54,913 nucleotides of DNA, taken from positions 1 to 54,913 of IMG/VR virus record IMGVR_UViG_3300049489_000585, one strand, 5' to 3'. The notes under the pieces are model-generated. The model made no database searches. It saw only the letters and a program-made list of their open reading frames with translations, and was not told where the DNA came from. Shown one piece after another: positions 1-54,913 of the stretch; the first letter of the stretch is position 1, and each line of letters opens with the position of its first letter. The translations under genes were made by a program, and so were the position numbers. The stretch comes from a virus.

Positions 1-127
1 ATGTCAGTCCTTTCGCGTCGGCGCATTGAGGCCGAACCCTTCGTTCCACCGGACAAGCCCCGGCGGGTGGCATTGGCGCAATGACCTACTTGGTCAGCGC
101 CGGGTCTTGCCGGTGAACTCCGACGTT
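1..127. repeat. Direct repeat of 53924-54050 (shared cassette 7 / attC7 segment)
   Basis: Bases 1-127 are identical to 53924-54050. The shared block covers the start of the cassette 7 gene and attC7 up to the GTT of its right core. After that the two copies diverge: here GTGC of cassette 9, there AGGC of cassette 8. A length of exactly 127 fits a common assembler k-mer size, so this is probably a branch point in the assembly graph created by two coexisting arrangements. Confidence 0.93.
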
Positions 128-131
128 GTGC
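31..131 (+). other. Hybrid attC7/attC8 site (product of cassette 8 excision)
   Basis: The left R box GCCGAAC (31-37) and the long stem are those of attC7, but the right core is GTTGTGC (125-131), which belongs to attC8. This is what remains after attC7 x attC8 recombination removes cassette 8. The 5' arm has an extra C (GTTCCACCGG against GTGAAC-side GTTCACCGG), the conserved extrahelical base of attC sites. The cassette 9 gene stops inside this stem. Confidence 0.85.
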
Positions 132-784
132 CGCACTGAACACCGCCGCGCCAGTTCCACCAGCCAAGCGCGGAACTCCGGCGGCGTGTGCTCTCGCTCG
201 GCCTTGCTCATGATCTCGACCGTCGTGCATTCGGGCATCCGCACCACGACGGCGGTGTGCTGGCGCGGGGGCGGTATCGTCGGCAGGTCGTCGGGGCCAG
301 CGCCTACGATGTACAGCCAAGTGCGCTTCTCTGCGCGGTGGCCCCAGTCCACTTGCCGAACCTCGGCTGTCCAGCCGCCGAACTGGTCGGGCGTGCGCCC
401 GCGCTGCGGCAGGCCGTAGTGCCGCCATGCGCGGCTGCCTGCCGGGTGCTCCAGCACGCCGCCGCAGCGACGCACCGTGTCCAGCGCGAACTTGAACGTG
501 CCGCCGTCGTTGCCCCAAGCGAATTCCGCGGCCTTGTGCGGGTAGCGAGACAGCACCACGCCATTGATCATCGACCAGCGCGTGCAAGGTGGATGCGCCA
601 CAACCGGCAGCGTGCCTCGGTACGTCGTGGCATCGCGCACCTTGTCCCACACGTCCACGCCTGGCATGGCCTTGTAGCCGCTGTCCTCGCGCGCAAAGAG
701 CACGGCCACGCCTGCGCGGTGCGGCACAACACGCCCATCGAGCCGAGGCCCAACAGCGGCAACGGTAGTGGCTTCGTCCAGCAT
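86..784 (-). CDS. Cassette 9: conserved phage protein with a PPCxRW motif, function unknown
   Basis: This 232-residue frame is of a kind common in phages (AVLFARED near residues 28-35, VVAHPPCTRWS near 61-71, LEHPAGS, WGHRAEKRTWLYIVG). Its function is unknown; the PPC motif recalls cytosine methyltransferases but the rest does not establish that. The first ~20 codons lie inside attC9 with no clear ribosome site, so a GTG start near VPHRAGVAV is possible. The last residues (NVGVHRQDPALTK) are read from the attC on its left. In the copy at the right contig end that attC differs, and so does the C-terminus. Confidence 0.75.
   Translation of the reverse strand: MLDEATTVAAVGPRLDGRVVPHRAGVAVLFAREDSGYKAMPGVDVWDKVRDATTYRGTLPVVAHPPCTRWSMINGVVLSRYPHKAAEFAWGNDGGTFKFALDTVRRCGGVLEHPAGSRAWRHYGLPQRGRTPDQFGGWTAEVRQVDWGHRAEKRTWLYIVGAGPDDLPTIPPPRQHTAVVVRMPECTTVEIMSKAEREHTPPEFRAWLVELARRCSVRHNVGVHRQDPALTK
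123..221. repeat. Direct repeat of 54815-54913 (start of cassette 9)
   Basis: These 99 bases are identical to the right end of the window. They start just inside the attC core (ACGTTGTGC) and run into the 3' part of the cassette 9 gene. The overlap implies circular closure with a 54,692-bp period for the form that contains cassette 8. The form without it, closed through 1-127, would be 53,923 bp; the 769-bp difference equals cassette 8. Confidence 0.92.
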
Positions 785-823
785 GCTCAGCGCTGTTGGT
801 CCCGGCTCATGGGCACGTTGTGC
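724..823 (+). other. attC: attC9 recombination site
   Basis: R boxes GCACAAC (724-730) and GTTGTGC (817-823) are perfect reverse complements. The arms GCCCATCGAGCCGAGG and the 3' counterpart CCCGGCTCATGGGC pair except for an extra C and an extra A in the 5' arm. These correspond to the conserved extrahelical G and T of the folded bottom strand. A long inner stem (CCAACAGCG/CGCTGTTGG) extends it to 100 bp. The cassette 9 start codon lies inside the site. Confidence 0.85.
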
Positions 824-1169: not shown

Positions 1170-1258
1170 GCACAACTGGTCGTTGCAACGGACGGCCCTA
1201 CGGCCGTCCTGTGGTCCGCGAAGGCCCGGCAGGGCCGCCGCTGAACTGGTCGTTACAC
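1170..1258 (+). other. attC: attC10 recombination site
   Basis: R boxes are GCACAAC (1170-1176) and GTTACAC (1252-1258). The 5' arm GTTGCAACGGACGGCCC pairs with the 3' arm GGGCCGCCGCTGAAC, leaving one G and one A of the 5' arm unpaired, the usual attC asymmetry. It also contains an internal GGACGGCC/GGCCGTCC palindrome. It separates cassette 10 from cassette 11. Confidence 0.8.
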
Positions 1259-1904: not shown

Positions 1905-1994
1905 GTGTAACCCTGCGCTCAACCGGAGCGCCTCGGGCAGCATCACGCTGCGGGTGAATTCGGCTCGTGGCTCCCGGTTATCTCCACGTTATGG
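1905..1994 (+). other. attC: attC11 recombination site
   Basis: R boxes are GTGTAAC (1905-1911) and GTTATGG (1988-1994). The L arms GCTCAACCGG and CCGGTTATC pair with the extra C in the 5' arm. The central region is long and only partly self-complementary, giving a 90-bp site. Confidence 0.8.
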
Positions 1995-2936: not shown

Positions 2937-2990
2937 CCATAACCCTGCGCTCAACCGGACCGAGTACGGCCGGTTAGCTCCACGTTGGGC
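2937..2990 (+). other. attC: attC12, last site of the array
   Basis: The left box is CCATAAC (2937-2943) and the right core GTTGGGC (2984-2990). Arms GCTCAACCGGACCG and CGGCCGGTTAGC pair, leaving the 5' arm C and A unpaired. It is closely similar to attC3. The methyltransferase gene to its right ends inside it. Confidence 0.87.
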
Positions 2991-3574
2991 TTCATGAACA
3001 CCAGCCAGTGCGTGCCGGCCTTCTTGCCGCTCGTGTTGCCGAACAGCGGTTGATGCGGCGTCAGCGCCAGCACTTCCGACAGCTTCACCTGCGTCTCGTT
3101 CCACTTGAACACCAGCACGCCATCGGGGTGCAGCACGCGGAAGCACTCGCTGAAGCCGGCGCGCAGGTCTTCGCGCCAGTCCTGGCCCAGCTTGCCGTAC
3201 TTCGCGGCCAGCCAAGAGCGCGGGCCTGCGCGCACCAGGTGCGGCGGGTCGAACGCCACCAGCCGGAACGTGCCGTCATCGAAGGGCAGTGCGCGGAAGT
3301 CCATCAGCAAGTCGGGGCATACCGTCAGCGTGCGCGTGCCATCCTGGCGGCCGTGGCTGCGGTCGGTCACTGTCAGCGTCTCGCTGCGGCGGTCGCCGAA
3401 CACCGCGTCCGGGTGTCCACGGTCGAACCACATCATGCGGCTGCCGCTGCACGGGTCCAACACGCGGGGCGAGGAATCGGCGTTGAAGCCCAACCCTTCG
3501 TGCGAGCCGACATGCCCCGGCGGGGCTTCGGTGGTCATCGAATCATCGTTGCGGGGCATGCGGCTCCACTCCAT
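2951..3574 (-). CDS. SAM-dependent methyltransferase, phage type
   Basis: A 207-residue class I methyltransferase: VLDPCSGSRMMWFD (SAM-binding loop), DFRALPFDDGTFRLVAFDPPHL (DPPH in the DPPY position) and FKWNETQ near the end. The substrate is not clear. The start at 3574 has TGAGG 7 nt upstream and lies 9 bp from the preceding gene of the early operon. No attC lies to its right, so it is probably a backbone gene. Its last residues (NVELTGRTRSG) are nevertheless read from attC12, so insertion of the array seems to have replaced its original 3' end. Confidence 0.82.
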   Translation of the reverse strand: MEWSRMPRNDDSMTTEAPPGHVGSHEGLGFNADSSPRVLDPCSGSRMMWFDRGHPDAVFGDRRSETLTVTDRSHGRQDGTRTLTVCPDLLMDFRALPFDDGTFRLVAFDPPHLVRAGPRSWLAAKYGKLGQDWREDLRAGFSECFRVLHPDGVLVFKWNETQVKLSEVLALTPHQPLFGNTSGKKAGTHWLVFMKPNVELTGRTRSG

Positions 3575-3583
3575 CGTTGAGCC

Positions 3584-4908: not shown

Positions 4909-5088
4909 TCAGTCGCAGCGCGTGCAGCGATTGAGCTCGGACACGCCGTGCGGACAGCGGGAGGCCCGCGCAGCGTTGCCGGCGGCCAGCGCGAGTTGGC
5001 GCTGCAGGCGTTCGATGGCGTCGGCCGCCTCTCGCTGCAGAAGCACGTTGGGCGGGCTCTCGCGAAGCCGCTGGATGAGAGCGTCCAT
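4909..5088 (-). CDS. Small putative zinc-binding protein
   Basis: A 59-residue protein: an amphipathic N-terminal half (ADAIERLQRQLALAAG), then SRCPHGVSELNRCTRC, whose three cysteines and histidine could bind zinc. Its ATG overlaps the stop of the SbcC-like gene (TGATG), so it is translationally coupled to it. Confidence 0.68.
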   Translation of the reverse strand: MDALIQRLRESPPNVLLQREAADAIERLQRQLALAAGNAARASRCPHGVSELNRCTRCD

Positions 5089-6884
5089 CAGGCTGCCTCC
5101 CTCAGTGCTTGGCGCCCAACGACGCCGGCCTCGATCCACTCGACCTGGACGCGCTCGCCCAGGCCGGCGGGTGGTTGCTTGAGCGTCGCGAACAGCAACG
5201 CGCTGTCGATCTCGCCGGTCTCGGCCAGCACGTCGAGCCACGCGAACAGGTCGCTGCGGCCCGGCAGGTCCAGCACGTCGACGCGGTCCAGCACCAGCAT
5301 GCGGGCGCTGGACACGTGCGCGATGGCCTCGGCCAGCATCGCGTCGGCACGCCAGCGCTCGGACTCGCTGCAAAGCGCGTAGGGCCTGCCGGCGCCGTAG
5401 GTGATCGCCATGTCGCTGTCGATCGACACCACCGGCCAGGCGGCATCGGCCGATGACTGCGCCAGGCGGGCGTTCACCGGGCCCAGGGCTTCGGACAGCA
5501 GATCGGCCGGGATGCCGTCGGGCGACAGTGCCTGCGCAATCGCGTCCCAGGCGGTCACGTCGGCGGCGTGCTGGCCGGCCTGCTTGGTCTTGGCCTCGGC
5601 GGCGTCGGCCAGCGCCTTGATCGACTTCAGCTTGTCGCCCTCGGCCACCGCGGCGGCGCGCTCGGCCTTCAGCTTCTCGACCTGGTCGCGGGCGTCCTGC
5701 AGGGCCGCGGCGTCGAAGGTCTCGTTCAGCTCGTCGGCGATGGCCTTGGCCTGGGCGTGCGCATCCTGGGCCGCAGCCAGATCGCGCTTGGCGTTGGCCA
5801 CGGCGCGCTGCATCAGCTCGAGCGCGCCGCACAACTCCGGCAGCCGGCTGCGGGCACCGTGGTCGCCGACGGCCAGAGCATCGATCGGGCCGTGCTCGGT
5901 TTCGTAGGCAGCCAGTGGGGCTGCCCAGGCTGCACGGAACTGGTGGTCGGCACCGACGAAGAACAGCGTGTCCCGCAGCGCGTGCGCCAGGTCATGCACC
6001 AGCCCAACACGCGGCCCTGCGCCGGCCTTCGCGGTGGCTTGCGCAAGCGCGGCCTCAGACTCGCTCAGGCCTCGCTGGTCGGCCTGCAGCTTGGCCTCGA
6101 GGCGGGGCACCTTGGCCGCATGCTCCTGCAGCGCCGGCAGCTTCGCCCGCAGCCCGGCACGGCGCTGCTCCTCGGCCTGCAGCCGTCCAATGGTCTGCTG
6201 CCAGGATGCGATGGCCACGTCAGCGTGCTTCGCGGCGGTGGCGTGCTTCGCGGCGGCCTCGGCGTCGTACGGCGGCACCGCGGCCTTCCAGCCCTTGGCC
6301 TTCTCGCTGCCGTAGGTCTCGCCGGTGACGGTGCGCCAACTACCTTTGCTTTCGGTCGCCTTGGTCTTGGCCTCGGTGCACGCGGCGTCGAAGCCAGAGC
6401 GCAGCAGCGGCAGCACGCGCTGCACCTTGGCGTCGTCGCAGCCCTTGGCCTTCAGGCGGGCAGCGATGTCGGCCTGCGCCATCTTCACGCCCATCAGGCC
6501 GAAGAGGAAGGCGCGGCGCTCGGTCAGTGGCAGCCGGGCGAACCGCTGGGCGTCCAGCACGTAGGCCAGCACCGGGTCGGTGTCGCGGCCCTTCTGGCTG
6601 TCGTGGATCTTGCCGCTGCGGTTGATGGTGACGCGCCACTCGTCGCCGTCGGCGTTCTTGACCTCGCACACGGCCAGGTCGGCGCCCTCGCGGATCAGGG
6701 CCGGCGCGTCCTTCTTCAGCGACACGCGGCCCAGGTCGGCGGTGATGGCCAGGGCCACGGCGTCCCTGAGACTCGACTTGCCGGCAGCGTTTTGACCGGC
6801 GAACAACGCCACCGGTGCGCGCAGCTGGATCTCGGCATGCTGGATGCCGAGGAAGTTTGTGACGTAGAGCGAACTGATGCGCAT
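5088..6884 (-). CDS. SbcC/Rad50-like AAA ATPase
   Basis: A 598-residue protein. The N-terminal ATPase half has Walker A GQNAAGKSS near residue 30 of FLGIQHAEIQLRAPVALFAGQ. The middle (about 200-450) is Ala/Lys/Glu-rich and coiled-coil-like. The C-terminal half has Walker B ARMLVLDRVDVLD. This is the layout of SMC-type DNA repair ATPases. The start MRISSLYVTNF at 6884 fits GGAGTG upstream; a longer frame is Arg/Pro-rich shadow. It sits between RecT and small genes, so it probably supports phage end-processing or recombination. Confidence 0.85.
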   Translation of the reverse strand: MRISSLYVTNFLGIQHAEIQLRAPVALFAGQNAAGKSSLRDAVALAITADLGRVSLKKDAPALIREGADLAVCEVKNADGDEWRVTINRSGKIHDSQKGRDTDPVLAYVLDAQRFARLPLTERRAFLFGLMGVKMAQADIAARLKAKGCDDAKVQRVLPLLRSGFDAACTEAKTKATESKGSWRTVTGETYGSEKAKGWKAAVPPYDAEAAAKHATAAKHADVAIASWQQTIGRLQAEEQRRAGLRAKLPALQEHAAKVPRLEAKLQADQRGLSESEAALAQATAKAGAGPRVGLVHDLAHALRDTLFFVGADHQFRAAWAAPLAAYETEHGPIDALAVGDHGARSRLPELCGALELMQRAVANAKRDLAAAQDAHAQAKAIADELNETFDAAALQDARDQVEKLKAERAAAVAEGDKLKSIKALADAAEAKTKQAGQHAADVTAWDAIAQALSPDGIPADLLSEALGPVNARLAQSSADAAWPVVSIDSDMAITYGAGRPYALCSESERWRADAMLAEAIAHVSSARMLVLDRVDVLDLPGRSDLFAWLDVLAETGEIDSALLFATLKQPPAGLGERVQVEWIEAGVVGRQALREAA

Positions 6885-6888
6885 GGCG

Positions 6889-7989
6889 TCACTCCACGGC
6901 AGGGCCAGCGGCGCGGGCGCGGCGGGCGGTGGGGGCTGCCGTCGCAGCGGCAGGCGCCTGGCCGGCGGCCTCGGCCTGTTCGCGCGCGCGGATCGCGGCT
7001 TCCTCGGCGGCGCTGGGTGCCCAGTCGTCGCCGGGGCCTTGGTCCGGCGGCGGGGCCGGGGCAGGCGGCGCAACGGCGGTGACGGCCGGCGGTTTCGGTG
7101 GCTTCGGCGGATCGACCTCGCCGGTCGGATCATCGCCACCACCGGCGCCGTCAGCCTCGGCATCCGGCAGGAATCCGAAGTCGCCGTCGATCACGTCCAT
7201 GCGCTGGTCCTGGCCACGCGAGGCAGCTTCATCAAGCCCAGCCGCGGTCTGGAACTCGATCGACAGCGGCAGGTACTTGGCCAGCCGACGGATCACCGTC
7301 TTGCGGCCCATCTCGACGAAGTGAGCGACCCACGGATGAGCGGCTTCCTTCTTGTACTTCTGGGCCTGTTGGAACCCCTGCGACGCGGCGCGGATGGCCT
7401 CGATCTGGTGGGTGCTCATGAACTCGAAGCAGTGGCCGCCGTCCTTCAGCTTGGCCACTGCGTAGAAGCCGACCACGCCGCCGCGGTCGCCCATCGCAGG
7501 CGTGTGGTTCAGCTTCTCGTCTAGGCCGTAGACCAGCTCGAATCGATCGTTCTCGCAGACCTCGTGCGCGGCGATGCTCACGATCTGCCCACTGCGCCGG
7601 GCCAGGTCGATCAGCCCCTTGTAGCCGATGATCACCTGCACGCTGTTGACCCAGCGCTCGTTGCCGTCGGCGTCCTTGCGCTTGGTGTTGAAGGGCACGA
7701 GGTAGGCGTGGCCGAGCACGGTGTTCGGCTCCAGGCCCATCTGCGCGCACTGGCCGATGGCGCCGACCAGAGACGCCACATCGCACTTGGCCAGGGCCGG
7801 CGTGGTGGTGGCCGCGATCTGCGCAACCTTCAGCAGCCGATCGATGCTCAGCGTCTTCGGCAGCATCTTGGCCAGGTCGCCCTTCTTCTTCTCAAGCAGG
7901 TAGGCGATCTGCTCCTTCGGCTTCATGTCGGCCAGCGGCCGGGTGGCGACCGCGCTGGCGGACTTCAGTTCTGCGATGTTGGTGGACAT
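6889..7989 (-). CDS. recT: RecT-family single-strand annealing protein
   Basis: A 366-residue protein. Residues 1-265 match RecT: LSIDRLLKVAQIAATTTPALAKCD, GQCAQMGLEPNTVLGHAYLVPF, VQVIIGYKGLIDLARRSG and KYKKEAAHPWVAHFVEM. The remainder is a Pro/Ala-rich, probably unstructured tail. It anneals complementary single strands after exonuclease resection. It is directly upstream of the ATPase and downstream of the nuclease, a typical phage recombination cassette. Single-stranded DNA handled by it may also favour folding of attC sites. Confidence 0.92.
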   Translation of the reverse strand: MSTNIAELKSASAVATRPLADMKPKEQIAYLLEKKKGDLAKMLPKTLSIDRLLKVAQIAATTTPALAKCDVASLVGAIGQCAQMGLEPNTVLGHAYLVPFNTKRKDADGNERWVNSVQVIIGYKGLIDLARRSGQIVSIAAHEVCENDRFELVYGLDEKLNHTPAMGDRGGVVGFYAVAKLKDGGHCFEFMSTHQIEAIRAASQGFQQAQKYKKEAAHPWVAHFVEMGRKTVIRRLAKYLPLSIEFQTAAGLDEAASRGQDQRMDVIDGDFGFLPDAEADGAGGGDDPTGEVDPPKPPKPPAVTAVAPPAPAPPPDQGPGDDWAPSAAEEAAIRAREQAEAAGQAPAAATAAPTARRARAAGPAVE

Positions 7990-7996
7990 GGTGTTC

Positions 7997-8839
7997 TCAC
8001 TCGTGGAAGTTGCAGGTAGACCAGCGCGCGCAATACTTCTCAGCGCACAGCATGGACTGGGGGTTAGGCGGGAACAGTCCCGTCCGAAACATCTCGGCCG
8101 CGAACTCGATCAGCCCGCGCTGGCCGTCGGCGCCGACCATCACGCGCTTGGCATCGAAGACCTTCGACGCCATGACCTGCGGCTTGCTGCTGGTCTGCAG
8201 TGCCAGCACCTGGCCGCCTAGGGTCTCCACCTGTTCGGTGTGCTCGTACATCAGTTGGTAGGTGCCGACCTGGGCGCTGCGGCCCTTGACCTTGGCCTCG
8301 CCCTTCTCGATGACGCGCGAGCCAGACTTGAGGTCCGGGATCACGATGCCGTCATCGGTGGCGGCCACGCGAGCGCGATCCATGGTGCCGGTCAGCCGGA
8401 TGACGATGCCACTGCCGCAGTCGATGTCGAGCGGGTCGAGCTTCTGCTCCACGCTCTTGAACGTGAACCGGGGCGACAGGTCCAGGCAGTACATCGTGTG
8501 CAGCTGCAGGCCGATCTTCTCGGCGTCGCTGACGGTCAGGTCATCCTTGCTGTAGTCCACGTCACGATCGGGCTTGTGCAGCGCGTCGACAAAGGCGCCC
8601 GCGGCGTCGTTGACCGACATGCGGCTGCCGCCCGGCAGGCGCCCGCTGTCGAAGGCCGCGGTGCTGGCGTGGAGTGCGGTGCCCAGCTGCGCGCGCAGGC
8701 CCGAGGCGTTGCGCATGCCCAGCAGGTGCTCGCCTTCCCACCGATGGGCGCAGTCGAACAGGCCACCCCAACTGGATGCGCGCACGGCGGTGACGCTGCG
8801 CTCAGCGACGACGGGGATGATGCGTTCAGGCGCGTTCAC
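7997..8839 (-). CDS. PD-(D/E)XK exonuclease, Cas4/RecB-like
   Basis: A 280-residue nuclease-like protein: an N-terminal ASSWGGLFDCAHRWEGEHLLGM region, a central GTMDRAR then IPDLKSGSR (the D...DxK part of the active site), QVGTYQLMYEHT, and a C-terminal CAEKYCARWSTC cluster. Cysteines at both ends suggest an iron-sulfur site as in AddB/Cas4 nucleases. The GTG start overlaps the stop of the preceding small gene. It would be the resecting partner of RecT. Confidence 0.82.
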   Translation of the reverse strand: MNAPERIIPVVAERSVTAVRASSWGGLFDCAHRWEGEHLLGMRNASGLRAQLGTALHASTAAFDSGRLPGGSRMSVNDAAGAFVDALHKPDRDVDYSKDDLTVSDAEKIGLQLHTMYCLDLSPRFTFKSVEQKLDPLDIDCGSGIVIRLTGTMDRARVAATDDGIVIPDLKSGSRVIEKGEAKVKGRSAQVGTYQLMYEHTEQVETLGGQVLALQTSSKPQVMASKVFDAKRVMVGADGQRGLIEFAAEMFRTGLFPPNPQSMLCAEKYCARWSTCNFHE

Positions 8840-37408: not shown

Positions 37409-37843
37409 GTGACCGGCATGACGCGCGACGAGTTCAGCGCCATCGAGCCGGCAGCACTGGGCGCCGTCGACATCGGCGACGAGGCGAACGGCACCGCCCA
37501 GCGCGTCGTCGTCAGGGCGCTGAAGGTTGGCCAGCTTCCAGCCTTCGCGCGCGCTGTGCGGCCGCTGACGGCGCAGGTCGAGGCGCTGATCGCCGGCGGC
37601 CTGTCGGTGAACGCCGTGCTGGCGCTGCTGGAGCAGCACACCGACAAGGTCGTCGAGGCCCTGGCGGTGGCCACCGGTGCGTCGTCTGCCGCGCTGAACG
37701 ACAGCAGCGTCGAGCAGATCGGCGAGCTGCTGCTGGCCGTGCTGGCGGCGAACAAGGATTTTTTGCGCGGCCGGCTGACGGCAGCCCTTCGGACGGCCGC
37801 GACGTTGAACCCTGGGGCTGGGCAGACACCGTCGCAGCCCTGA
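37409..37843 (+). CDS. Tail assembly chaperone (G-like, short form)
   Basis: A 144-residue protein (GTG start), zero-frame product: VVVRALKVGQLPAFARAVRP and QIGELLLAVLAANKDFLRGR. Helps tape measure and tube assembly. The same mRNA also makes a longer frameshifted form. Confidence 0.83.
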   Translation: MTGMTRDEFSAIEPAALGAVDIGDEANGTAQRVVVRALKVGQLPAFARAVRPLTAQVEALIAGGLSVNAVLALLEQHTDKVVEALAVATGASSAALNDSSVEQIGELLLAVLAANKDFLRGRLTAALRTAATLNPGAGQTPSQP

Positions 37844-49124: not shown

Positions 49125-50222
49125 TCAGACCAGCGAGTCCAGCGGGCTGCGCACGCACATGCCGCCCTGCTTGGCCGGCAGGACGTGGGTATAGATCATC
49201 GTGGTCTCCAGATCGGCGTGGCCGAGTAGGGCCTGAATCGTGCGGATGTCGTACCCGTCCTGCAGCAGGTGGGTGGCAAAGGAGTGCCGCAATGTGTGCG
49301 GGGTGGCGCGCTTCATGATCCCGGCGCCGGCCACGGCCCGGGCCATCAGGCGCTGGATGCCGTCCTCGTGAAGGTGGTGGCGCCTGACAAGGCCAGTCCG
49401 CGGGCACGTGACGTAGGTGTCGGTGGCGAAGATCCACTGCCAGCGGATGTCCTGCCCGGCCCGCGGGTACTTCAGGTGCAGCGCGTGCGGAAGCTCGACG
49501 TCGGCCCGGCCGGCAGTGAGGTCGACCTGGTGCAGCGCCTTGCGCGCTTCCATCACCTCGCGCAGCTGGCCGGCCAGCGATCGCGGCAGCATGACGGTTC
49601 GATCCTTGGCGCCCTTGCCGTCGCGGACGGTGATGCTGCTCGACTCGATGTCCGCGTCCTGCATGCGCAGGCGCAGACCTTCCGTCAGCCGCAGGCCAGC
49701 GCCGTACAGCAGGCGCAACACCAGGCCGCGGATGTTGGCCTGCGGGATCTGCAGCCACAGGCGCGCCACCTCGTCCCGAGTGAGCACGACCGGCAACTTC
49801 TGCGGCTGCTTGGCGCGCACGATTCCCTCGACCCATGGCAGCTCGACCTGCAGGGCTTGCTGGTACAGGAAAAGCAGCGCGGCCAGGGCCTGGCGCTGGG
49901 TGCTGGCCGACACGTCGCGCACCTGGGCAAGATGCGTGAGGAACTGCGACACCTCCGGCGCGCCCATCTCGAGCGGGTGGCGCTTGCCGGACCACAGCAC
50001 GAACTGGCGCGTCCAGTGCCAGTAGGCCTGCTCCGTACGGCGCGAATAGTGTTTGGCCCTGATCGCGCCGACCACCAGGTGGCGCAGGTGGCCAGGCTCA
50101 CCCGGCTGCGGCTCACTCGCGGATGCAGGAACGCTGCTGCGGGCCAGCCCATCTCCGCGAGCCAGCGCGACAGCGCGGCGCGTAACGGGCTGGCAGGTCG
50201 GCGGTGCTTGGAGGATGGCCAT
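49125..50222 (-). CDS. intI: Integron integrase IntI
   Basis: A 365-residue tyrosine recombinase of the IntI family. Core-binding domain: IRAKHYSRRTEQAYWHWTRQ, FLTHLAQVRDVSASTQRQAL, LPVVLTRDEVARLWL. Catalytic residues: Arg in YGAGLRLTEG, Lys in RDGKGAKDR, HTLRHSFATH, GHADLETTMIYTH with the nucleophilic Tyr. The IntI-only helix that handles attC extrahelical bases is present (ALHLKYPRAGQDIRWQWIF). It is about 25-45 residues longer at the N-terminus than usual, so the start may be downstream. No frameshift or missing residue is seen: it should be active. attI and the cassette array lie upstream. Confidence 0.96.
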   Translation of the reverse strand: MAILQAPPTCQPVTRRAVALARGDGLARSSVPASASEPQPGEPGHLRHLVVGAIRAKHYSRRTEQAYWHWTRQFVLWSGKRHPLEMGAPEVSQFLTHLAQVRDVSASTQRQALAALLFLYQQALQVELPWVEGIVRAKQPQKLPVVLTRDEVARLWLQIPQANIRGLVLRLLYGAGLRLTEGLRLRMQDADIESSSITVRDGKGAKDRTVMLPRSLAGQLREVMEARKALHQVDLTAGRADVELPHALHLKYPRAGQDIRWQWIFATDTYVTCPRTGLVRRHHLHEDGIQRLMARAVAGAGIMKRATPHTLRHSFATHLLQDGYDIRTIQALLGHADLETTMIYTHVLPAKQGGMCVRSPLDSLV

Positions 50223-50270
50223 GGCGTCGGGTGTTACACCGCAGATCCTGCGGTCGAATTGAAGTTAGGC
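50223..50270 (+). other. attI: attI site
   Basis: The core GTTAGGC (50264-50270), preceded by GAA, lies 42 bp from the intI start and opens the array; crossover would fall between G and TT. Two inverted repeats precede it: GTGTTACAC (50231-50239) and CCGCAGATCCTGCGG (50239-50253). They could be IntI-binding or operator sites. The stop of the cassette 1 gene is inside this region. No LexA box is seen. Confidence 0.82.
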
Positions 50271-50518
50271 GTCTCAACGCGCTCCCACCAGCCGCCCCAC
50301 TCAGCAGGCGTCAGTCTGTCGGCGTGCAAGTGTTCGTGCGGCTGGCAGCACTTCAGCTTGCGCGGCATGTAGTCGTTCGGCCTATCGCCTTGCAAGCGCG
50401 GCGCGCTGGCGTTGGTGTAGCCAACGAACAGCACTTGTTCGCGCATGCGTCCGAGCACGTCGCTATAGCGGTTCCGGTAGGTGCCAACCTCGGTCGGCAA
50501 GGTCTTTGTGTACGCCAT
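50234..50518 (-). CDS. Cassette 1: conserved phage protein, function unknown
   Basis: A 94-residue protein. The start MAYTKTLPTEVGTYRNRY at 50518 has AGGAG upstream (a longer frame starts at 50563). The middle has LFVGYTNASAPRLQGDRPND and CCQPHEHLHADRL. The last residues (NFNSTAGSAV) are read from attI. It ends 11 bp before intI and is read in the same direction. Confidence 0.72.
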   Translation of the reverse strand: MAYTKTLPTEVGTYRNRYSDVLGRMREQVLFVGYTNASAPRLQGDRPNDYMPRKLKCCQPHEHLHADRLTPAEWGGWWERVETPNFNSTAGSAV

Positions 50519-50564: not shown

Positions 50565-50630
50565 GCCTAACCCGTCGTCCGACCTGACAGCCCCGGCAAG
50601 CCGGGTCTGCAGGTCAACTTTGCGTTAGGG
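50565..50630 (+). other. attC: attC1 recombination site
   Basis: R boxes GCCTAAC (50565-50571) and GTTAGGG (50624-50630). Arms GTCCGACCTGACAG and CTGCAGGTCAAC pair with one C and one A unpaired in the 5' arm; a CCCCGG/CCGGG inner stem closes it. Confidence 0.9.
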
Positions 50631-51405: not shown

Positions 51406-51464
51406 CCCTAACAGGTCGCTCAAACGGACGGGCCTACGGCCCGCCGTTTAGCTTTGCGTTAGCC
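51406..51464 (+). other. attC: attC2 recombination site
   Basis: R boxes CCCTAAC (51406-51412) and GTTAGCC (51458-51464). Arms GCTCAAACGGACGGGCC and GGCCCGCCGTTTAGC pair, leaving a C and an A of the 5' arm unpaired; loop TAC. Confidence 0.92.
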
Positions 51465-51922
51465 CGCTCAAGCGGATCCAGCACAAATTCCGCGATGTGA
51501 CGGCCGGTGCCCTTTCCTGCGGATCCGTCCTCGGTCGCAAGCCAGCGCACGTCGCCCAGGTTGCGTACCTTCGCGCCCTCGGCCAGCAGCATCAGCACCC
51601 ACTTGTCTATCGGGTACACCAGCACCACGCGCTTGCCCTTCTTGGCTTCGGCAATCGCCTTCCGGGCCCAGGCCGTCGGCCCCTTCTTCTTCCCCTGGTG
51701 CATCACGGATCCAAAGGGCGGGTTGACGTAGTTACTTTCGCCCCACTCGCACGTAAGGCCGTCGAACTCGGGCGGCTTCGGGTAAGGGCACGGGTCGAAG
51801 GTGAAGCTGTAGCGCGCGTGCAGGTCTGCGAACAAATCCGGCGGCGTCAGCCAGTAGTGCTTGCCATCGTCGCCGTTGCCAGCGTGGAACTTGTTTGCGT
51901 CAGGTGCTAGGTTGTTTGCCAT
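51434..51922 (-). CDS. Cassette 3: phage Dam-like N6-adenine methyltransferase
   Basis: A 162-residue enzyme of the phage N6A-methylase family: HYWLTPPDLFADLHARYSF, TFDPCPYPKPPEFDG, ESNYVNPPFGSVMH (NPPF active-site motif). GAGAG precedes the start at 51922. The end (RANAKLNGGP) is read from attC2. With cassette 2 it forms a DNA modification set. Confidence 0.9.
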   Translation of the reverse strand: MANNLAPDANKFHAGNGDDGKHYWLTPPDLFADLHARYSFTFDPCPYPKPPEFDGLTCEWGESNYVNPPFGSVMHQGKKKGPTAWARKAIAEAKKGKRVVLVYPIDKWVLMLLAEGAKVRNLGDVRWLATEDGSAGKGTGRHIAEFVLDPLERANAKLNGGP

Positions 51923-51947: not shown

Positions 51948-52001
51948 GGCTAACCCGCCGCTGAACCGGACTGAGTACAGCCGGTTAGCTGCACGTTCGG
52001 C
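51948..52001 (+). other. attC: attC3 recombination site
   Basis: Left box GGCTAAC (51948-51954), right core GTTCGGC (51995-52001). Arms GCTGAACCGGACTG and CAGCCGGTTAGC pair with one G and one A unpaired in the 5' arm. Very similar to attC12. Confidence 0.9.
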
Positions 52002-52387: not shown

Positions 52388-52439
52388 GCCGAACTACTCG
52401 CTCAAGCCGACCTTCGGCGGCTTAGCTCGAACGTTATGC
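52388..52439 (+). other. attC: attC4 recombination site
   Basis: Left box GCCGAAC (52388-52394), right core GTTATGC (52433-52439). Arms GCTCAAGCCGACC and GGCGGCTTAGC pair with C and A unpaired; loop TTC. At 52 bp the shortest of the array. Confidence 0.88.
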
Positions 52440-52878: not shown

Positions 52879-52936
52879 GCATAACCCTTCGCTCGAACGG
52901 ACGGCCTACGGCCGCCGTTCAGCTCCCACGTTAGCC
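52879..52936 (+). other. attC: attC5 recombination site
   Basis: Left box GCATAAC (52879-52885), right core GTTAGCC (52930-52936). Arms GCTCGAACGGACGGCC and GGCCGCCGTTCAGC pair with C and A unpaired. Confidence 0.91.
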
Positions 52937-53331: not shown

Positions 53332-53394
53332 GGCTAACTGGCGCATGCAGCGGACTCGCCCTAGCGGGCTCGCGCGCTGATGCTGTCGTTCGGC
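53332..53394 (+). other. attC: attC6 recombination site
   Basis: Left box GGCTAAC (53332-53338), right core GTTCGGC (53388-53394). Arms GCATGCAGCG and CGCTGATGC pair with one unpaired G in the 5' arm; inner CTCGCCC/CGGGCTCG. Confidence 0.86.
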
Positions 53395-53713: not shown

Positions 53714-53925
53714 TGCTTCTCCGCAAGCTCGAAATTGAAGGCGCCGCCTTCGATGTTGAAAGAACAGACGAAACGCCCGGTCTCGTCCACCTCTTGCGCC
53801 GGAATCGACACCTTGCTGCCCAGCCTGCGCAGCAGCGCAATCAGAAGCTGGTCCTTGAAGTCGTCGATCACGTCCGCGTGCAGCCCAGCGCCAGCGGCGC
53901 GAGCGGCATCAGTTCCCTTGCCCAT
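53710..53925 (-). CDS. Cassette 7: small protein, function unknown
   Basis: A 71-residue protein. The start MGKGTDAARAAGAGLHADV at 53925 has AAGGA upstream; a longer frame enters attC7. DDFKDQLLIALLRRLGSKV is helical. First of two coupled genes in cassette 7. Its ATG lies in the 127-bp block repeated at 1-127. Confidence 0.72.
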   Translation of the reverse strand: MGKGTDAARAAGAGLHADVIDDFKDQLLIALLRRLGSKVSIPAQEVDETGRFVCSFNIEGGAFNFELAEKQ

Positions 53926-53953
53926 GTCAGTCCTTTCGCGTCGGCGCATTGAG

Positions 53954-54054
53954 GCCGAACCCTTCGTTCCACCGGACAAGCCCCGGCGGGTGGCATTGGC
54001 GCAATGACCTACTTGGTCAGCGCCGGGTCTTGCCGGTGAACTCCGACGTTAGGC
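53954..54054 (+). other. attC: attC7 recombination site
   Basis: Left box GCCGAAC (53954-53960), right core GTTAGGC (54048-54054). Arms GTTCCACCGGACAAG and CTTGCCGGTGAAC pair with an extra C and A in the 5' arm. A long inner part (CCCGGCG with CGCCGGG) makes it 101 bp. The segment up to GTT recurs at 31-127. Confidence 0.9.
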
Positions 54055-54269
54055 GTCTTGCTGTCATCGAAGCCGTGCTCCACGGCTCGCCAGTCGCCGC
54101 GCCTGGCTTCGCGCATGTCCAGCGCGCGGAATTCGGCCGTGATCTGCCTGCGGAACTTGCGCGCCGCGTTCACATCGGCAGTCACGGTCATGTTCACCTG
54201 ACAGGCCATGTAGAGCCCGGTGGACTTCCCGTCCTTGGTGAAGTTCTCCACCAGCCACGAGTACGTCAT
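54009..54269 (-). CDS. Cassette 8: conserved small protein, third gene
   Basis: An 86-residue protein starting MTYSWLVENFTKDGKSTG, with YMACQVNMTVTADVNAARKF and EARRGDWRAVEHGFDD. The end (NVGVHRQDPALTK) is read from attC7. The ATG overlaps the stop of the second gene (ATGA). Function unknown. Confidence 0.74.
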   Translation of the reverse strand: MTYSWLVENFTKDGKSTGLYMACQVNMTVTADVNAARKFRRQITAEFRALDMREARRGDWRAVEHGFDDSKTPNVGVHRQDPALTK

Positions 54270-54769: not shown

Positions 54770-54823
54770 GCCTAACCCGTCATTCGAGCCGACCGTTCCG
54801 GCGGCTCAATTCCCACGTTGTGC
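54770..54823 (+). other. attC: attC8 recombination site
   Basis: Left box GCCTAAC (54770-54776), right core GTTGTGC (54817-54823). Arms ATTCGAGCCGACC and GGCGGCTCAAT pair with C and A unpaired. Its right core is the one found in the hybrid site at 31-131. Confidence 0.91.
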
Positions 54824-54913
54824 CGCACTGAACACCGCCGCGCCAGTTCCACCAGCCAAGCGCGGAACTCCGGCGGCGTGTGCTCTCGCTCGGCCTTGCT
54901 CATGATCTCGACC
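54772..54913 (-). CDS. Cassette 9 gene, 3' end in the cassette 8-containing arrangement (cut by window end)
   Basis: Same gene as 86-784, but with attC8 on its left. The frame then ends NVGIEPPERSARMTG with a stop in the left R box, instead of NVGVHRQDPALTK. The 5' part lies beyond the contig end and continues at about base 222. Confidence 0.78.
   Translation of the reverse strand, partial: VEIMSKAEREHTPPEFRAWLVELARRCSVRHNVGIEPPERSARMTG

Follow-up and report, generated by a model that had tools for sequence, protein, structure and literature searches.

Phage-borne integrons (PMC9892861), a class 1 attI1 peptide that is finished by the inserted cassette (PMC8876359) and integrons with a reversed intI (PMC3607928) are already known. 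Integron cassettes are usually treated as modules that give the same protein at any position of the array. The integrons found in phage genomes combine intI, attI, attC sites and cassettes, including cassettes that code methyltransferases, and phage attCs are recombined by IntI1 (Qi et al. 2023, PMC9892861). In that paper the arrays have the usual bacterial orientation or divergent sites, whereas the cassette genes of the phage integron presented here are inverted; its main text contains none of the terms 'C-termin', 'reverse' or 'opposite'. Most genes of the annotated Vibrio and Shewanella phage integrons are divergent from intI.

The closest parallel for a protein end set by recombination is ORF-11/ORF-18 of class 1 integrons, a frame that crosses the crossover point of attI1 and whose end is set by the inserted cassette; the stop may come from the GTTRRRY box (PMC8876359). 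In the same source ORF-11/ORF-18 is a short leader that begins in attI1, ends in the cassette and acts by translational coupling. No leader of this type was found in the phage locus; its frames belong to complete cassette proteins, which begin in the cassette and finish in the attC or attI of the neighbour. The reversed integrons of Treponema resemble the phage integron in that intI and the cassette genes are transcribed in one direction, but intI points to attI there (PMC3607928), while in the phage it has the usual direction and it is the genes inside the cassettes that are inverted. A Treponema-type inversion of intI was rejected because the start of the phage intI faces attI.

The locus analysed here is very probably a phage integron of canonical layout with inverted cassette genes, whose proteins carry switchable tails coded by the neighbour and whose attCs have acquired stops in one reading frame, frame 2. 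Among the titles and abstract starts listed in searches of open-licence PMC papers, neither phage integrons with inverted cassettes, nor attC-coded tails, nor frame-specific stops were found.

Organization of the phage integron

The window, meaning the whole stretch of DNA that was analysed, is IMG/VR virus record IMGVR_UViG_3300049489_000585 at its full length of 54,913 bases. It belongs to a temperate tailed phage, with genes for a head protease, a major head protein, a tape measure protein and a phage integrase, and carries, besides an integron integrase, 13 cassettes in an array. A 68-nt repeat occurs six times, with a spacing of 66-72 nt, in a rightward phage gene (34111-34532). A tRNA-Asp predicted by ARAGORN amid the structural genes (37419-37507, minus strand) may be spurious.

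The integron integrase gene intI (49125..50222, minus strand) codes a protein of 365 aa that scores 412.7 bits against TIGR02249, for which the cut-off is 265. The putative attI region (50223..50270, plus strand) lies beside the start of intI. It was recognised by its sequence, featuring a crossover box GTTAGGC at 50264-50270 and a flank that is similar in related phages. The array spans rightward of intI, across the contig ends, through to position 3582. A covariance model, R1, built from eight attCs of the window gave 14 matches in it (E ≤ 0.0015), every one of them on the plus strand. These correspond to 13 distinct sites, one attC being matched twice because the contig ends overlap the array. 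In canonical attCs the extrahelical bases sit on the R''/L'' side. The folded sites of the window likewise have two bulged bases in the left (R''/L'') arm, and folds and covariance models together support an array of attCs with R and L boxes. Like in ordinary integrons, all sites read away from intI. Sites A1 (50565..50630), A3 (51948..52001), A4 (52388..52439), A5 (52879..52936), A6 (53332..53394), A10 (1170..1258) and A11 (1905..1994) were placed by models R1 and R2; the remaining sites, also on the plus strand and placed by covariance models, are described below with the genes that they touch.

Cassette exchange at the G|TT cut is indicated by sequence comparison, since versions of the array that differ by the presence or absence of cassette 8, and cassettes with differing neighbours, diverge exactly at this point. 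The cassette genes do not lie on the attC strand, as they would for expression from Pc, and are instead opposite to attC. The array is faced by a group of leftward phage genes (3584..8839, minus strand) comprising SbcC-like (5088-7163), RecT-like (6889-7989) and exonuclease-like (7997-8839) genes, all on the minus strand. The stop codon of the final gene of the group is 8 nt from the array.

Cassette genes that end in a neighbouring site

The inverted orientation of the cassette genes places each 3' end against the attC of the neighbour. Five of the 13 genes in the window (cassettes 1, 3, 8, 9 and 13) finish inside the neighbouring attC or attI, those of cassettes 11 and 12 end in a TAA made by the crossover box (1253 and 1989, respectively), and six (cassettes 2, 4, 5, 6, 7 and 10) stop ahead of the crossover. 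All five tailed genes are in a single frame, frame 2, in which the crossover is read as AA|C. The junction codon AAC (Asn) takes two bases from the cassette and one from the neighbour. Counted with this shared Asn, the read-ins of cassettes 1, 3, 8, 9 and 13 are 10, 8, 13, 13 and 11 residues long, respectively.

Four of these genes had been named in a preliminary description as having tails coded by attC, and all four tails are present in frame. The cassette 9 gene (86..784, minus strand; phrog_12600, 4.6e-63), which consists of cassette DNA at 126-784 and of neighbour DNA at 86-125, and the cassette 8 gene (54009..54269, minus strand; assigned from its sequence and relatives) are two different genes that both end in NVGVHRQDPALTK, coded by the bottom strand of attC A7 (53954..54054, with a second copy at 31-131). 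The boundary, taken as the G of G|TTRRRY, is at 125 (=54048). The cassette 13 gene (2951..3574, minus strand) codes a phage methyltransferase (phrog_954, 2.3e-69) ending in NVELTGRTRSG, from the bottom strand of A12 (2937..2990; boundary at 2984). The Dam-like methyltransferase of cassette 3 (51434..51922, minus strand; phrog_111, 1.3e-15) ends in RANAKLNGGP, whose R and A are cassette-coded while NAKLNGGP extends from the junction codon into the bottom strand of A2 (51406..51464; boundary at 51458). The earlier observation is thus confirmed and is wider than noted. It gave neither the inversion of the genes as the reason nor the restriction to one reading frame, and lacked a fifth tail: the cassette 1 gene (50234..50518, minus strand) ends in NFNSTAGSAV, coded by the bottom strand of the attI region and closed at TAA 50234. 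Newly inserted cassettes would receive the attI-coded peptide as their default tail. A frame-2 peptide of the form NxNSTAxxAx followed by a stop recurs at attI in many related phages.

The cassette 8 gene is found in six other contigs with bodies that are 85 to 99% identical; two more matches cover only ~20 residues at its end. The DNA alignment of the family shows agreement up to ...CC.AAC and unrelated sequence beyond. Five different tails occur, four of them next to different attCs and one next to attI, namely NVGVHRQDPALTK in the window, NVEAERLDQAAEDRR in contig L052, NRNSTADPAA next to attI in L053, NARLSGRQRP in L055 and NAKLT in L056. A variant of the gene that stops ahead of the junction occurs in L054 and L057. 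The body of the cassette 13 methyltransferase ends ...THWLVFMKP in homologues inside and outside integrons, and in cassettes it is followed by NVELTGRTRSG, NVGVEPVTPATEE, NG, NVRAKLPAEVALPCGAKEN, ND and others, the homologue of L144 keeping its own stop before the junction. Unrelated genes have a common tail beside similar attCs in four pairs, for instance NVAIKRLP on two genes. The proposal that cassette exchange alters protein ends holds both in the window, for cassette 9 (see below), and in independent phage contigs, for two gene families.

The frequency of such read-ins was established on attC matches in phage loci (matches of model R2 with E up to 0.1). Of 186 matches, three belonged to control records and were dropped. 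A GTT box and flank were present in 175, which gave 150 non-redundant junctions once near-copies were removed. The gene continues into the neighbour in frame 2 at 46 of these junctions. It is closed by the crossover TAA at 30, by a TGA located 8 nt inside at 27 and by some other stop of its own at 34, while eight junctions are without an ORF. Apparent read-ins through frames 0 or 1 at the five other junctions are doubtful and likely due to false ORFs. The first residue of the tail is N in 45 of the 46 frame-2 read-ins and the median tail length is 11 residues (range 2-35).

Being short, switchable and common to unrelated genes, the tails might be useful: C-terminal exchange would diversify phage proteins in their stability, partner binding or escape from host sensing, and shuffling would be kept partly for that. 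This is unlikely, because the tails start past the end of the conserved domain, where non-cassette homologues end or carry unrelated short ends, because most genes of the window avoid a tail, and because no tail residue is conserved other than the Asn imposed by the DNA. The selected feature that was found is the stop (see below), not the peptide. The AF2 model of the methyltransferase gives pLDDT < 50 for the tail (residues 199-207), in a model that is poor as a whole (mean 54.3). The tails, located beyond the conserved domain, are probably for the most part tolerated rather than useful.

Cassette 9 at two junctions

The ends of the record repeat parts of the array, positions 1-127 being identical to 53924-54050 and positions 123-221 to 54815-54913 (99 nt). 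These terminal identities mean that the contig ends meet the array at a branch, one arm of which has cassette 8 while the other lacks it; both forms of the array, in which A7 and cassette 9 are either separated by this cassette or adjacent, are thus contained in the record. The two versions of cassette 9 diverge exactly at the crossover. Its gene ends in NVGVHRQDPALTK beside A7 and in NVGIEPPERSARMTG beside A8, the attC of cassette 8 (54770..54823), whose bottom strand codes the alternative tail. When joined to the A8 flank, the cassette 9 body reads ...SVRHNVGIEPPERSARMTG and the protein has 234 aa, compared to 232 aa. The predicted change of the cassette 9 tail when cassette 8 adjoins it is therefore borne out by two junctions that are both present in the record. 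An exact search for the 3' end of cassette 9 in other viral contigs gave no match.

Contig ends are prone to error, and the second cassette 9 junction could be an assembly artefact, with no exchange in this population. Such an artefact is distinctly improbable given that the junctions part exactly at the crossover, that they share a piece of exactly 127 nt, the length that a branch of the assembly graph would produce (metaSPAdes uses k = 127), and that the same kind of exchange is found for other genes in independent contigs.

Stop codons in the attC sites

If frame 2 is translated, attCs should carry stops in this frame, and phage attCs do. The phage set of 133 attCs is composed of the clustered junction sites and of sites from two MAG-binned phage contigs, and was compared to 60 bacterial attCs, which had been located with a phage-derived attC model. 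Of the 80 genome_contigs loci, 40 were used. Mean length is equal in the two sets and GC is 0.63 and 0.60, respectively. A frame-2 stop is present inside 118 of the 133 phage attCs versus 29 of the 60 bacterial ones (p = 6.1e-9), a comparison in which related sites are not fully independent; the phage result is stable across four levels of redundancy removal. The differences are not significant for frame 0 (88/133 versus 34/60) and frame 1 (82/133 versus 32/60).

The variable middle of the phage attC contains 92 frame-2 stops, compared to 47 in frame 0 and 29 in frame 1. The odds ratio of frame 2 versus frames 0 and 1 in this region is 2.42 in phages (p = 3.0e-8) and 0.94 in bacteria. Shuffling of the attC middle gives z values of 8.9, 0.8 and -2.4 for frames 2, 0 and 1 of phage sites; the frame-2 value is 8.1 without the window and 7.5 under strict clustering, and -0.3 for bacterial sites. 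Closure in frame 2 extends to 82 of the 96 attCs whose present neighbour does not use this frame, as expected if cassette partners keep changing. The excess would imply that the tails are translated in vivo and bounded by selection, and it seems that stops for the inverted genes have evolved in the sites next to them.

The tails could be only conceptual, with genes formally open into attC in a frame that goes unused, and attC shaped by recombination alone. The conservation of attC for recombination and the chance level of frame-2 stops in bacterial attCs are in line with this explanation, but the excess of frame-2 stops in phage attCs is absent in the bacterial ones and sits in the part of attC least constrained by recombination, which renders this explanation very improbable. 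An origin of the tails in attC conservation alone was rejected on the same excess, limited to frame 2 in phage attCs and absent in bacterial ones.

Start codons are also found in attCs. In the window, those of cassette genes are included in their own attC, at A9 (724..823, plus strand) for the gene 86-784 and at A13, the last site of the array (3488..3582, plus strand), for the gene 2951-3574. Among 130 phage attCs, 45 contain an ATG that begins a bottom-strand ORF of at least 70 codons, compared to 9 among 60 bacterial ones. Frame 1 is slightly depleted in stops, in keeping with start codons for the gene to which the attC belongs. The amino terminal ends that precede the conserved domain vary among homologues of the cassette 13 methyltransferase, which accords with start codons located inside the gene's own attC.

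A bottom-strand stop, mostly TGA, is positioned 8 nt past the crossover G in 43 of the 133 phage sites and in 8 of the 60 bacterial sites.

Orientation of the cassette genes

A coding score was obtained with a codon model trained on eight ORFs of the window, three of which were checked by family search. The gene is opposite to attC in all 12 window cassettes scored and in 62 of 71 cassettes of the window and related phage loci, some of which overlap; the other nine are co-oriented with attC by this score. When loci retrieved with three cassette genes are turned so that the query gene is on the plus strand, 80 of 81 attC matches are on the minus strand, the exception being a weaker reverse match of the same site. 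Co-orientation of the genes with attC was rejected on the coding score and on the strand of these matches. In the control, the attC of the class 1 integron cassette aac(6')-Ib scores on the gene's own strand, the gene of this cassette being on the attC strand, unlike those of the window.

The longest-ORF rule assigns the gene to the strand opposite to attC in 77 of 111 phage cassettes and to the same strand in 33, with one tie (8 opposite and 4 same in the window), versus 7 opposite and 34 same among 41 cassettes of bacterial loci. Restricted to cassettes in which the longer ORF exceeds the other at least 1.3-fold, the rule gives 55 opposite and 13 same in phages, and 2 and 28 in bacteria. It is noisy in GC-rich DNA, and some cassettes may truly be co-oriented with attC. 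An ordinary integron with the usual gene orientation, whose bottom-strand genes are spurious antisense ORFs, is scarcely credible: the longest ORF of the top strand exceeds that of the bottom strand in 4 of 12 window cassettes, but the bottom-strand genes match families (methyltransferases, RNA ligase, phrog_12600), are favoured by the coding score throughout and have homologous phage genes that are also opposite in strand to attC.

In the turned locus L024, two cassettes of one array, at ~6395-6951 and 7470-8026, are equal in length and coding score, and one is apparently a duplicate of the other.

Proposed exchange of protein ends in a phage operon

The preferred reading is that of a temperate phage carrying an integron in which intI, attI and attCs are arranged so that all attCs read away from intI. 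The cassette genes point leftward to attI and are most likely transcribed from a leftward operon of the phage, the putative source being the SbcC-, RecT- and exonuclease-like genes whose last member stops 8 nt before the array. Each cassette begins at the TT of G|TTRRRY, which puts the 3' end of its gene next to the bottom strand of the adjoining attC. Most frame-0 genes are closed by the TAA of the crossover box, and frame-1 genes by the TGA found 8 nt before the crossover or by some other stop inside the cassette. Frame-2 genes often continue through AAC (Asn) into the neighbour's attC up to an in-frame stop, with a predicted gain of ~11 residues (median). IntI would presumably move cassettes at attC and attI, so that the neighbour changes and the tail changes with it. 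The phage attCs have acquired frame-2 stops in their variable middle, and nearly any adjacent gene would be closed after a short tail.

It is plausible on balance that the attC of this clade acts as a two-way translational connector, providing on its bottom strand a frame-2 stop for the upstream gene and often, in the other frames, the start of its own gene. Inverted cassettes could then be shuffled in any order within a phage operon, with combinatorial protein ends. A protein end that depends on the neighbour means that recombination would edit proteins besides gene order, and the frame-specific stops would be a sequence-only signature that phage attCs are read as coding DNA. The inverted cassettes would account for the way in which an integron could be driven by an operon of the phage instead of Pc. 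Junction peptides, open to mass spectrometry, would report cassette order.

Related integrases and hosts

In a quick tree of 117 sequences, 28 phage-borne IntIs, including that of the window, form one branch (SH-aLRT 97), and 11 other phage IntIs are found elsewhere. The nearest non-phage branch contains IntI1 and one Rhodocyclaceae IntI. Identity to IntI1 is 51-56% in the plasmid matches listed. The phage Virus Rctr41k (L048, KX853513), from a methane-oxidising enrichment, codes an IntI-like protein that is 47% identical, with neighbour genes on the same strand; no attC match with model R2 at E up to 1 was listed for it. Two contigs of the 28-IntI branch sit in Rubrivivax MAGs, which suggests that the hosts of these phages are Burkholderiales.
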